Positions 2,848-63,319 of a DNA stretch of 64,000 nt are shown piece by piece. The position numbers and the translations under genes were made by a program. The notes under the pieces were generated by a model, which saw only the letters and a list, made by a program, of their open reading frames with translations, had not been told where the DNA came from and searched no databases. Source of the DNA: Tulasnella sp. 424. Taxonomy: Eukaryota > Basidiomycota > Agaricomycetes > Cantharellales > Tulasnellaceae. Each line of letters starts with the position of its first letter. Position 1 is the first letter of the stretch. Location: positions 1 to 64,000 of the forward strand of contig WSUB01000097.1 in assembly GCA_019633425.1 (NCBI GenBank), read 5' to 3'.

Positions 2848-4885
2848 CTACTTCGTGTCGTAGAGCAGAAGCCACGACGTCCGAATAGCATCGTTGTCGT
2901 ATACGATAAGCTCGTCGTAGTTCAATCCGGAGCCAGGGTTGGCGATTACCTGCCGAAAGAAGTGACGCGAAAAATGAGCGGGGTGAACGGACACAACACC
3001 GCCACCTGCGGTTTGCTCACCGAGTCGAATCCAGCCGGAGCTGCCCGAAGACTATTATCTGCCGAAGTGAGGATCTTGCCCTTTCCGACTGCTACACGGT
3101 TGAGGAACATCGCTTTGTACGGTGACCCGGGTGCCGCCCCTCGCGTGTACGTATCCGATCTATACAGGGAAGGTCGTGAGTCCGACGACCAAGAAGAGAG
3201 GCTGATCATCTCGCATACTTCGAGGACGTAGCGCTCGTGTAAATCCCTTTACCAAACCTATAATCCGTCATCAACGAGTCAGTCGATTATTGACGGACGA
3301 AGACGTCCAAAAACGACCTACATCCCGACCGCAGCGAACTTGACATCATAAGAGTTCTTCAATATCAAGCACACGGAACATTGGGTATTGGTGCAGAAAT
3401 TCAAGTTCCTCGAATCGTCCCCAATTTTGCACATCCGTCGAGTTCCGTGCCATCGACGGCGCTCGTTGGCAGCTTCCATGCCTCTGGCTTTGAAGTTCCC
3501 AGAGGCTTCGAGATTTCGCCTGAAAATGGTGAAAACGAAAAAGAGAATCAGGATAAACTTCGGAAAAAAGAAAAGTATAATGACGGACTTGTACGTATCG
3601 TAACTATCGACTAAGCTCTGCGGGAGGATAATCTTGTACACTTTAGCCACTTTCGGTGGGGTGCTGGTGTGCTTCCAAGCCGTCTTGAACTGTCCAGCCA
3701 CTAGTGAGGGGCGTTATGCAGCGTCAATCACAACGAAGTTTCGGTCTGCGGGTTGTGAAAAGTTTAACTCGCCATCAGCAAAGCGGGGGTCCGAGGTTGG
3801 TACTTCGAGGAGGATCGGGGCGGCATTTGTGGCGGATTGACTGCACTTGCCCCCGCAGAACAGGCTCTTGGGGCCATCTCGTGGCATGTCTTTGCAGAAT
3901 AGGCAAGCAGGGTCGAGGCCATCTTTCACGCCTTGTCTGATAAAAGAATGGGATAAACAATATTGGTGATCTCGTTCTGCTGCTTGACTAAAAACGAAAG
4001 GGCTGACCTTCGATGCGCCGCGGAGCAGTACCCACTGCCATATTCTTCTGTGCGGTTGCACCTTGCTATCTTGCACGGTTCTGAAACAACCAAAGCATTC
4101 AGCTTTCTTGATTGCATGTCAGAGGAGTCAAGCTCCTGAATCGGAGAGACACCTACTTGATGGAACGCCGAATGGCGTCGGGAACGACGGCGGTTGGGTC
4201 GACATCTGAGAGGAAGGAGGTTGTCGAGGAGGTACGCCATTCTTTGCCGCTTGACCGCACGTTCGGCCGCAATATTTATGAGTGCCATGTTTTGGTCGTG
4301 CGAAGCAATGCTGATGAAATGACATGTTCTTCAGCCACAGCAATCAAACGGACGTAATAGCGCTTCAACGAAACGCCACAAAGAACCGCACCTCGCAGAG
4401 AGTCGGATCTACAACGGGTGCAGGAGGTTGCTGGTACGGTGGTGCTCCCCAACCATAACCTTGATTTCCATATCCGCCAGTGGAATTCCCATAGGGATCA
4501 TAGCCGCTGTTCGGGTCATATCCGCTGTTCGGGTCATATCCGCCTGTTGGATTGTATCCGCCTGTCGGATCGTATCCACCACCATAGCCGCCACCATAGC
4601 CACCGTACCCATTGTAATTCGGACCTGCTGCTGGCGGGTCATCATCGTCATCGTCGTACTGGTCATACGATCCATAAGTGTTTCCTCCCCCTCCAGGTCC
4701 ACCACCACCGCCACCACTGGATGCTGCTCTGCCGCACGATCGGGAGCAATAGGAAAATCCGGCGTGAGCAGGAGCACGTCCACAGTACTGTCGGAATTTG
4801 AAGGGGGTCCAAGTCAGAAATCGGTTAGCGAAAACAGAAAAGAAGAAGCGCTCACCGCGCAGAGTTGACCTGAAGCAGACATCAT
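2848..4885 (-). CDS. Zinc-finger protein with canonical PARP-type ADP-ribosyltransferase domain
   Basis: Predicted to transfer ADP-ribose from NAD+. The start is the ATG at 4883-4885 (MMSASGQLCA), followed by exons 4856-4885, 4392-4787, 4157-4310, 4008-4080 and one starting at 3936, then several short exons to the TAG at 2848-2850. Fingers in order: YCGRAPAHAGFSYCSRSC with a Gly/Tyr-rich tail (repeated GGYDPNSGYDP units), CFARPKHGTHKYCGRTC, CKIARCNRTEEYGSGYCSAAH, and ACLFCKDMPRDGPKSLFCGG. The ART domain follows: start FKTAWKHTSTPPKVAKVYKI, the His motif RRRWHGTRRMCKIGDD, a Cys cluster FCTNTQCSVCLIL, then FGKGIYTSATSSKYA, KAMFLNRVAVGKGKIL and the Glu motif NYDELIVYDNDAIR. The full His-Tyr-Glu triad is present, as in active PARPs. 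It is the most normal ART in the cluster and the first of a run of minus-strand relatives. Confidence 0.88.
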
Positions 4886-5374
4886 AATTAGAAGCTGACT
4901 TGTGAGACGAAATGGTCAAGGTGGTGGTTCCGCTGAACACCGATGTTGCCTAAGCTTTGAACATCTCACGGTCCCCCAGTCACTCCCGAGCGGACACTTG
5001 TTCATCAATGAGCAAGAGATCATCTGATAGCAGGAAGGGCCTTGCACGAGCCTATCCTGTCCAATCAGTGGCTCTCGGTCTTCTGACCGTCCAAAGGGGA
5101 CAACAAAACTGTATGTAATCGGGGGCTCGCCGAAACGCCTCCGACAGGTGTACACGGCGAAACCAGAGAGGTCCTTTCGTGGTAGGCGCGTACTCACAGG
5201 AAGGAGGACCATCCGAAAGCCAAGATGAAATGCATCTATTGCAGTGTCTCACAGGTTGATAACGTGGAGCGGGGCGTACAGCAAAAAGAAAACGAGAATG
5301 GTTCAAACTGGAGTGGCCTGCAGGTATAATAAAACTAACTAAATACACGAAGCGGGACCTGATCCCGAGCGTTG
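4886..5374. other. Intergenic between PARP and ART-Y genes
   Basis: Open frames at 4916-5212 and 5052-5348 on the minus strand have no motif in common with the neighbours and no splice support. The stretch lies upstream of the PARP start at 4885, so it should hold that gene's promoter and the 3' end of the next gene. Confidence 0.4.
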
Positions 5375-62100: not shown

Positions 62101-63319
62101 TACCGGAATGGATCGAGGCCTCATGAACGGTGAGAAAGGGACCGAGAGAGACTGACTTACACTCCATCAACGGATGACGCTCCATAGATCAGCTGGCTAA
62201 AAGCGGTTCTGAGTGCGTCACAGATAGCGCAGGATTCCAAGTTACAAGGGGCGGGGTTGCTATCATTTGCGATATCACAAGCCGCTTTGCCGCCGTAGTA
62301 CGTAGTAACGACGGTGCACCCGTCGTTTGCCTGCCTGTATATGTTTGGATCAGCTACCAAATACGGTGCCGTTGACGAGCTCGACTCACAGAGCAAAGTC
62401 AAATCGCCGGTATATCTTCCCTGGAAGGTCGACCCGGTAGATGGATTTCAGCTTGGTCATGGAGACGTTGTTGGAGTCCCAACGCTCTTGCATCATGAGG
62501 AGAACTGAAGTCGAAGGAGGGTGGTGTTCGGTCATCAGATCCCTACGAGAGCAGCTGTCGAAGGAACTTACTCTTCCGCCCAATAGGAGCGTTGGAACCC
62601 TCCTCTCTGAGAGTGATAGCATCCGCACGGCTGGCCGCGGCGACAGGTGCGGGCGCCGGAATTATTGACGCAGGGGGTGTCGTACTTTGTGAGGCTTCGT
62701 GGCAAAGGATACCACAATAGCGGTGCTGAACGATTGAACCATCTTCCTTTGATTCCCAGCTCTTTCCTCGTTTACCACAATTCTGAGGGAAGCAAGCCAG
62801 CATTGGCGTCTTGCTACACAGCCACTTCACAAGCGGAAACTCGCCTCGCACAAATTTGACTTATTGGATGTGTTGGAATCTATTCGGAGTGAGCATGAGT
62901 CAGATTCTCATTCCTATGTAAATAAGCCTATTTCGTACCGTAAGTGGTGCCGTAATAGGCGATCTCGCTCTGTCCCTGCGTGTAGTTTGGAGGTGGAGGT
63001 GGAGGGGCGTATTGATAGTTGTTCGGTAGAGCGGTTGAGGTTGAGGCTGAGGTTGAGGGGGGTTTCCATTTACTGCCTTCGGTAGCACATGCTATTTACG
63101 TAGACACGGATTAGGTTTGGTCTCCAACTACTGATGAGGGATGACCTCACTTTTGCCACAGTACGAGTAGTTTCCGTATTTCGGTCGCACGCCGCAATAC
63201 TTGAGAGCAGAGAGTGAGCATCCCATAACTGAGGACTCATCAAGGCGATGGCAGTGGGCGCTCACCTCACACATTGCGGTAGCTGGGGCATACGGGTTGA
63301 AGTAATTAGAGGTCGACAT
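59188..63319 (-). CDS. Finger plus ART-Y protein with a very long disordered tail
   Basis: The ATG at 63317-63319 reads MSTSNYFNPYAPATAMCE, intron, the finger YCGVRPKYGNYSYCGK, completed by ACATEGSKWKPPSTSASTST, then a finger with a long loop (CGKRGKSWESKEDGSIVQHR, YCGILC). ART-Y: ERWDSNNVSMTKLKSIYRVD, CTVVTTYYGGKAACDIANDS, CNLESCAICDALRTAFSQLI, GPGLYTYTNPASAHQSEGPT, FVLIQCRVVTRGN, FVDDSGVVFCSQPMAIIPTH. The Glu position is Asp here. A Pro/Arg-rich tail follows (RARRVSPPPAPLAPSRVLPR; RPQPKRRRPGVTFDIDGPGS; RVVLDPVYIPLPPSPSPDDP, PAKKVKKVAKPG). The exons from about 60.2 kb on (STPAYPTRRESTPPSDSSSA; TPVIAPTILGGEEPVEEDDG; a basic end IRKWAKLGSEMRKGKNKD at 59188) are inferred from composition only; the true stop could be nearer 61.5 kb. 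The basic PKRRRP and KKVKK runs could be nuclear signals. Confidence 0.7.

Follow-up and report, generated by a model that had tools for sequence, protein, structure and literature searches.

We describe a gene cluster on contig C446 (159,334 bp) of Tulasnella sp. 424, in which genes for PARP-type ADP-ribosyltransferases (ARTs, candidate writers of ADP-ribose) lie among genes for NADAR proteins (candidate erasers). Tulasnella is a genus with orchid-mycorrhizal Cantharellales. The window, meaning the whole stretch of DNA that was analyzed, corresponds to bases 1–64,000 of this contig, in a genome of 46.8 Mb and 448 contigs. In our assessment, the chances are about even that the locus is a tandemly expanded Tulasnella cluster built on a PARP/NADAR association of several Agaricomycetes, in which a writer/eraser cycle would operate with non-catalytic relatives. 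The two PARPs and the one NADAR with intact catalytic residues are outnumbered by conserved relatives of both families that have lost such residues, several of which form adjacent same-strand pairs. With catalytic residues missing from most copies on either side, the locus, as judged from its sequence, is not mainly one of active writers and erasers; of the original prediction of a writer/eraser locus, the placement of NADAR genes beside ART genes stands, but not the activity of most copies.

The predicted 60-kb cluster was confirmed, but it extends beyond the window to about 155 kb, with eight further places of an altered PARP-like domain (ART-Y) and four further NADAR places. In the whole genome, ART-Y queries matched C446 only, in 14 copies; those outside the window lie at about 67.7, 72.3, 76.5, 80.3, 82.9, 146.6, 150.3, and 154.0 kb. 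The seven NADAR places of the contig are at 13.5, 33.4, 56.0, 75.1, 79.0, 88.9, and 148.5 kb (the last a fragment, N7), and three NADAR loci were found elsewhere in the genome, on contigs C53, C1, and C436. Self-comparison and genome searches showed that nearly all of the clustering on C446 is local duplication. Gene models were obtained by splice-aware alignment, and the single-protein genome searches give lower bounds on copy number.

PARP genes and their altered relatives

As predicted, the window contains two complete PARP domains with the catalytic His, Tyr, and Glu (H-Y-E), one of them inside a fusion. PARP-A (2848–4784, minus strand; spliced model) combines Cys modules with a PARP catalytic domain whose H and Y motifs are separated by a C4 insert. 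Its catalytic part (2848–4436) reads without a stop if a GC-AG intron is accepted, and a Cys module lies at 4734–4784. The hand-built protein matches PF00644 (E 3.5e-13) and scores 88% to a Tulasnella sp. 427 protein. A gene break at the stop was considered and rejected, since the GC-AG intron removes the stop and protein P0001 has the same joined residues. This intron occupies 3701–3772 (minus strand), and in a relative, P0002, the deposited annotation seems to run across the corresponding intron.

The second domain belongs to the ART-Y2/PARP-B fusion (7513–10747, minus strand), composed of ART-Y2 (10632–9619), a linker of LPDxPP repeats, Cys modules, and the PARP-B catalytic domain (H-Y-E, 8601–7513). 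The PARP-B model spans 7513–8747, and an open frame at 8635–9711 connects the last ART-Y2 exon to the PARP-B module exon; the sequence supports a predicted fused gene. HGT, GIY, and YDE motifs are present in the spliced models of PARP-A and PARP-B, and in PARP-B also by alignment. PARP-C (11560–13179, minus strand; splice-aware model), which carries Cys modules, is the PARP already noticed for its lost His, here replaced by Phe (F-Y-E).

PARP-A and PARP-B are predicted to be tankyrase-like, with the tankyrase/PARP catalytic domain as best profile and fold match. A search of a viral structure library returned general PARPs. PARP-A and PARP-B share the fold and the H-Y-E residues of the tankyrase/PARP (ARTD) family but differ from it by the C4 insert and by the Cys modules placed in front. 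The PARP-B query matched eleven further contigs. Outside C446, catalytic residues were read for C53, C118, and three PARP copies of C436; C118 looks like a classical PARP1-type gene and lacks the C4 insert. PARP-family copies also occur, mostly as arrays, on C14, C121, C268, C421, C436, C438, C37, and C340.

Six ART-Y domains were found in the window, one more than the five predicted, and in the alignment the catalytic His is replaced by Tyr in five and by Phe in ART-Y4. ART-Y1 (5378–7163, minus strand) has Cys modules and a Y-Y-R pseudo-PARP domain; 398 of 411 aligned residues are identical to P0173, and 283 of 373 to P0175 of UAMH 9824. ART-Y3 (36785–37761, plus strand) is also Y-Y-R, with domain exons at 37042–37761 and uncertain upstream exons. 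ART-Y4 (42961–44549, plus strand; F-Y-K) is annotated as FRC04_012172 in Tulasnella sp. 424, and P0179 is identical to it in 334/334 residues. ART-Y5 (57327–58550) and ART-Y6 (61796–63199), both on the minus strand, are Y-Y-V and carry a Cys module. Over the entire contig, His and Glu are each lost in 14/14 copies, and Tyr is kept in 11/14 and lost in Y12–Y14. Half of the copies (7/14, ART-Y5 to ART-Y11) are Y-Y-V.

ART-Y has a predicted PARP fold, in agreement with the original prediction. We rejected the idea that these copies are pseudogenes, given that the domain models are stop-free in 14/14 cases and that the ratio of nonsynonymous to synonymous substitution (dN/dS, Nei-Gojobori) is low where finite; as the aligner penalizes stops, the stop-free models alone are weak evidence. 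The ratio is 0.13–0.18 in six pairs of Y7–Y10 and 0.27–0.35 in three pairs of Y12–Y14, and many distant pairs are saturated. Because of these low values, and similar ones for NADAR (below), the close copies look like working genes, the Y12–Y14 group being less constrained.

Seven ART-Y copies share with PARP13/ZAP the Y-Y-V in place of H-Y-E, and finger modules likewise precede the dead PARP domain. ART-Y differs in that its relatives, 12 of which were scanned against Pfam, matched seven families with neither a CCCH finger nor WWE among them, and the resemblance is probably a convergence. Constraint on the close copies, the conserved fold, and the Tyr kept in most copies would also fit ART-Y proteins that have stayed catalytic through an altered mechanism, Tyr standing in for His and other residues taking the role of Glu in a different NAD-dependent reaction. 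We consider this very unlikely in view of the loss of both His and Glu throughout and of Tyr as well in Y12–Y14; moreover, one report describes human PARP13, which also has Y-Y-V, as inactive (PMC8568172).

NADAR genes and their linkage to ART genes

The three NADAR domains of the original prediction were all found, at 13.5–14.3, 33.4–34.0, and 56.0–56.8 kb on the minus strand, and the family matches PF08719/YbiA. Their reading as erasers fits N1, whose catalytic Glu is intact, but two of the three are altered at this residue. N1 (13451–14322) is a YbiA-type NADAR with an acidic N-terminus and the E/K/E residues present, and its hand-built protein, in a version that preceded a correction of the junction letters of the last exon, matches PF08719 with E 1.3e-30. 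N2 (33415–34002) is diverged, with the catalytic Glu codon changed to Phe. In N3 (55965–56809), located 518 bp downstream of the ART-Y5 domain on the same strand, this codon is changed to Leu. A profile search of the genome placed PF08719 above the cut-off at C446:13505 and C446:56254, and the NADAR family profile matches E. coli YbiA (2.1e-45) and a second solved NADAR (1.5e-15). Self-comparison also revealed two short relics on the minus strand that resemble part of the N2 gene (46116–46314 and 48272–48717).

The active site of the Phytophthora nicotianae NADAR is lined by E43, K50, and E125, and in the E. coli C7 NADAR the residue at the E125 place is required for activity, as described in the parts of that report available to us (PMC11543638). 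The Glu and Lys of the EH...K helix (E43 and K50) are kept in N1–N6, the six copies with that exon. At the E125 place, before the FWG loop and read beside the splice donor, N1 has Glu (GAG), N2 Phe, and N3–N6 Leu; N7, a fragment, stood outside this scoring. Thus, N1 keeps all three catalytic residues of the E. coli YbiA and P. nicotianae fold family with its E/K signature, whereas N2–N6 depart from it at the third. Restoration of the Glu by splicing was rejected, as none is offered by the donor and acceptor sequences of N1–N6 inspected by eye.

Among the 120 NADAR relatives listed (of 286 found), 113 have Glu at this place. Five have Tyr or Phe and are all from Tulasnella (427, 408, UAMH 9824, and two of T. 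calospora), and the remaining two, annotated too short, are N4 and N5 of strains 424 and 425. For N5, the Tulasnella sp. 425 protein is identical in 152/152 residues. A 34-row tree with 11 E-less rows requires six changes, at least three of them forced by well supported branches; without two long rows, four changes are required and at least two are forced. A single origin of the Glu loss was rejected on this basis. One E-less clade unites N3 with T. calospora and UAMH 9824 proteins, while N2, the C1 NADAR, and N6 sit on long branches and their positions are unsure. The dN/dS of NADAR is 0.07–0.30 in four of six pairs (one at dS 2.6), and the other two pairs are saturated.

For five of the seven C446 NADARs, the distance to an ART domain is 326–1169 bp, with NADAR and ART domain sharing a strand in every case; for N2 and N6, the distance is 2.8 and 5.4 kb. 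A fusion of ART-Y and NADAR into one gene was thought unlikely: by eye, the ART-Y frame meets a stop at 56.3–57.4, 75.5–76.7, and 79.4–80.5 kb (minus strand), and N4 has an annotated protein of its own, P0057, identical to the C446 gene in 220/220 residues.

Co-location of ART and NADAR genes was also encountered elsewhere. On C53, a NADAR lies 4.1 kb from an H-Y-E PARP, forming the second ART/NADAR locus of this genome; the chance of at least two of four NADAR loci lying within 10 kb of an ART is 7.9e-4. In protein lists from ten other genomes, six contigs carry both an ART-type protein and a NADAR, compared to 0.117 expected under a crude null with genome size fixed at 50 Mb for all. Two of these contigs are from JGI-2019a and one each from T. 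calospora, Mucidula, Tricholomella, and Armillaria. The count started from 28 named PARP rows of 52, 9 named ART-Y rows of 16, and 30 of the NADAR rows listed. It left aside Tulasnella sp. 424 (whose shared contig is C446), sp. 425, and species in one list only, as well as rows without a species name and, with few exceptions of no effect, NADAR rows whose species appears in neither the PARP nor the ART-Y list. In UAMH 9824, a PARP and an ART-Y are on one 13.7-kb contig.

Several observations weigh against the favored explanation. Much of the adjacency on C446 may be copies of one founding pair. The C53 pair is separated by a long open frame, probably another gene, and the fair test, at least one of the three non-C446 NADAR loci within 10 kb of an ART gene, gives a modest chance P of 0.034. 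C436 fits poorly, since its diverged NADAR, which has the Glu, lies 80 kb from the three PARP copies of the contig, as does C1, where no PARP match was found on the contig of its distant NADAR; this NADAR has Phe at the Glu place, so the loss is not unique to the cluster. No NADAR was found beside the PARP-family arrays of the other contigs. Half of the other genomes (5/10) have no shared ART/NADAR contig, the two JGI-2019a contigs may represent the same locus assembled twice, and contig sharing was scored in these genomes rather than distance. Finally, the favored explanation is drawn from sequence.

These points bring in an ordinary expansion of tandem families, in which one ancestral neighborhood was duplicated while PARP-like and NADAR genes work separately, NADAR as an N-glycosidase of riboflavin intermediates and ART-Y drifting to another role. 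Local duplication, which accounts for nearly all of the clustering on C446, and the NADAR-less PARP arrays speak for it, and according to the available text of one study, bacterial and plant NADARs have N-glycosidase activity on intermediates of the riboflavin pathway (PMC11543638). The recurrence of the linkage on C53 and on contigs of other species speaks against it. So does the distribution of the other ADP-ribosyl hydrolases: searches of the genome for Macro, PARG, and ARH gave one locus each, none on a contig with ART matches, and these three families were rejected as the eraser of the cluster. We regard such an independent expansion as possible, if somewhat unlikely.

Cysteine modules, a shared motif, and neighboring genes

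Shared Cys modules were part of the original prediction, and we counted 27 Cys-finger modules in the window and 30 on C446, compared to 0–3 in ten shuffles and none in four control stretches of 10 kb (three of them from C446); the search expressions were composed after the modules of the window had been seen. At least six finger-only proteins had been proposed; for at least eight stretches with fingers, the models show neither an ART nor a NADAR domain alongside, gene boundaries being provisional. Finger-bearing genes lie on the plus strand at 17508–17880 (three Cys modules), 23041–23634, and 32077–32603 (two Cys modules and a DDLPDxPP motif at 32581–32603). Three tandem copies of a finger-bearing gene follow on the same strand at 45183–45915, 47429–48134, and 49930–50692, and the module search found one more module of this tandem family at 53075–53125 (plus strand). 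A further finger-bearing stretch at 35562–35850 (minus strand, as N2) may or may not be part of the N2 gene. Two finger queries made of Cys modules matched no Pfam family.

The DDLPDxPP motif links the three kinds of gene. Its 23-base pattern occurs five times in the 46.8 Mb, always on C446, and a reversed control pattern not at all. The sites are the linker of the ART-Y2/PARP-B fusion (8960–8982, minus strand), N1 (14145–14167, minus strand), the 32-kb finger gene, N4, and a stretch at 64.8 kb. At this last site (C446 64822–64844, minus strand), the motif lies in an apparent decayed NADAR start followed by a stop. Looser matches were found in 6/120 listed NADAR relatives, all from Tulasnella and one being N4 itself. 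As none was found in the 52 PARP and 16 ART-Y relatives, sharing with PARP is known in this genome only. We read the sharing as common ancestry or a common binding partner, and the presence of the motif in PARP-linker, finger, and NADAR sequence counts against families that were merely duplicated side by side.

Other features surround these genes. At 22206–22982, an open frame encodes a unit of about 29 residues that is repeated in tandem, abounds in GRGSRRGRGG (RGG-like), and matches no Pfam family. A gene family with two or three copies in tandem at about 26800–31300 (minus strand) was seen by self-comparison alone. Split frames at 38086–39364 (minus strand) resemble, by eye, a PHD-finger ING-type gene, though its pieces have no Pfam match. 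A dual-specificity phosphatase-like gene is duplicated in tandem at 52422–52816 and 54816–55246 (minus strand; PF00782, E 3.6e-8 and 1.1e-7, the second just below the curated cut-off). A Pfam search with pieces of the genes at 38–42 kb gave no lead. Beyond the window, a repeated family of long open frames with no function assigned occupies about 104–127 kb of C446, between two ART-Y/NADAR blocks.

Known systems and meaning of the locus

Bacteria offer examples of an ART and a neighboring NADAR that function as a pair, namely DarT1-NADAR and YarT-YbiA (PMC11543638, PMC11125620). The original prediction drew on the NADAR partners of bacterial DarT. This analogy holds for the adjacency of the ART gene and NADAR seen in the DarTG1 toxin-antitoxin, whose NADAR specifically removes ADP-ribose from guanine (PMC11543638), but not for the type of protein. 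DarT is highly diverged from PARPs in the published account available to us (PMC11833690), and its partner NADAR is of the BC4488 type with Asp, whereas those of C446 are of the YbiA type with Glu or Leu/Phe; the YbiA assignment follows from the Glu of N1 and from the family profile. The C446 locus is also eukaryotic, multi-copy, and made mostly of altered copies. Closer in its residues is the myxobacterial YarT-YbiA toxin-antitoxin pair, an H-Y-E ART beside a YbiA-type NADAR with catalytic Glu. YarT differs in that it clusters with HYD1-type ARTs and is described as one single pair, and the available text mentions neither fingers nor a pseudoenzyme array (PMC11125620).

From gene content, predicted fold, active-site residues, adjacency, and constraint, we infer the following roles for the writer/eraser cycle that we favor. 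PARP-A and PARP-B would attach ADP-ribose to a target picked by their finger modules, and N1 would remove it, most likely from guanine in nucleic acid. Guanine is favored because NADARs tested elsewhere cleave guanine-linked ADP-ribose in DNA and RNA, and are inactive on phosphate-end, thymidine, and uracil linkages in the published excerpts at hand (PMC11125620, PMC11833690, PMC13036486). A nucleic-acid target is suggested by NADAR specificity in other organisms (PMC11543638, PMC11833690, PMC11125620) and by uncharacterized fingers; the physiological role of NADARs across eukaryotes is called unclear in the available part of a 2024 study (PMC11125620). ART-Y, the E-less NADARs, and the finger-only proteins may act as non-catalytic binders, decoys, or regulators of the cycle. 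We liken this role to that of PARP13/ZAP, whose Y-Y-V pseudo-PARP domain contributes to antiviral activity without catalysis.

The same genes could instead form a conflict system. Its PARPs would modify mycovirus or transposon nucleic acids, or be harmful to the cell, with NADARs protecting self and the rapidly duplicating pseudoenzymes serving as sensors or decoys. Both bacterial pairs are toxin-antitoxin systems (PMC11543638, PMC11125620), and the locus recalls families of immune genes in its tandem expansion, its finger modules, and the recurrent loss of the Glu in its NADARs. We find this doubtful, since whole-domain dN/dS shows no positive selection (these are domain averages, not site-by-site values), no viral or transposon target is known, and, with two finger queries outside any Pfam family, RNA or DNA binding is a guess. 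A bolder version of the writer/eraser cycle, which we advance tentatively and consider unlikely, is a eukaryotic ART-NADAR system in which finger-guided PARPs reversibly ADP-ribosylate RNA or DNA guanines, N1 reverses the mark, and dead writers (Y-Y-V/R) paired with E-less NADARs, duplicating together, serve as readers or decoys. This would be a fungal analogue of vertebrate PARP-based nucleic-acid immunity.

The families themselves are known. In the open-licence papers that we searched, we found no report of a fungal PARP-NADAR pairing or cluster, nor of a eukaryotic ART-NADAR association, of finger/C4 PARPs in such a setting, or of a joint expansion of altered writers and erasers. The locus suggests a hitherto undescribed reversible tagging system in fungi. 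The genomic pairing of NADAR with a specific PARP family that bears fingers points to candidate partners and offers a writer/eraser pair open to direct testing. A 2010 survey, in its available text, gives fungi only PARP clades 1 and 6, and our results point to a fungal PARP lineage outside these two clades (PMC2964712). In this one cluster, writer-like and eraser-like genes both gave rise to constrained lines with lost catalytic residues.

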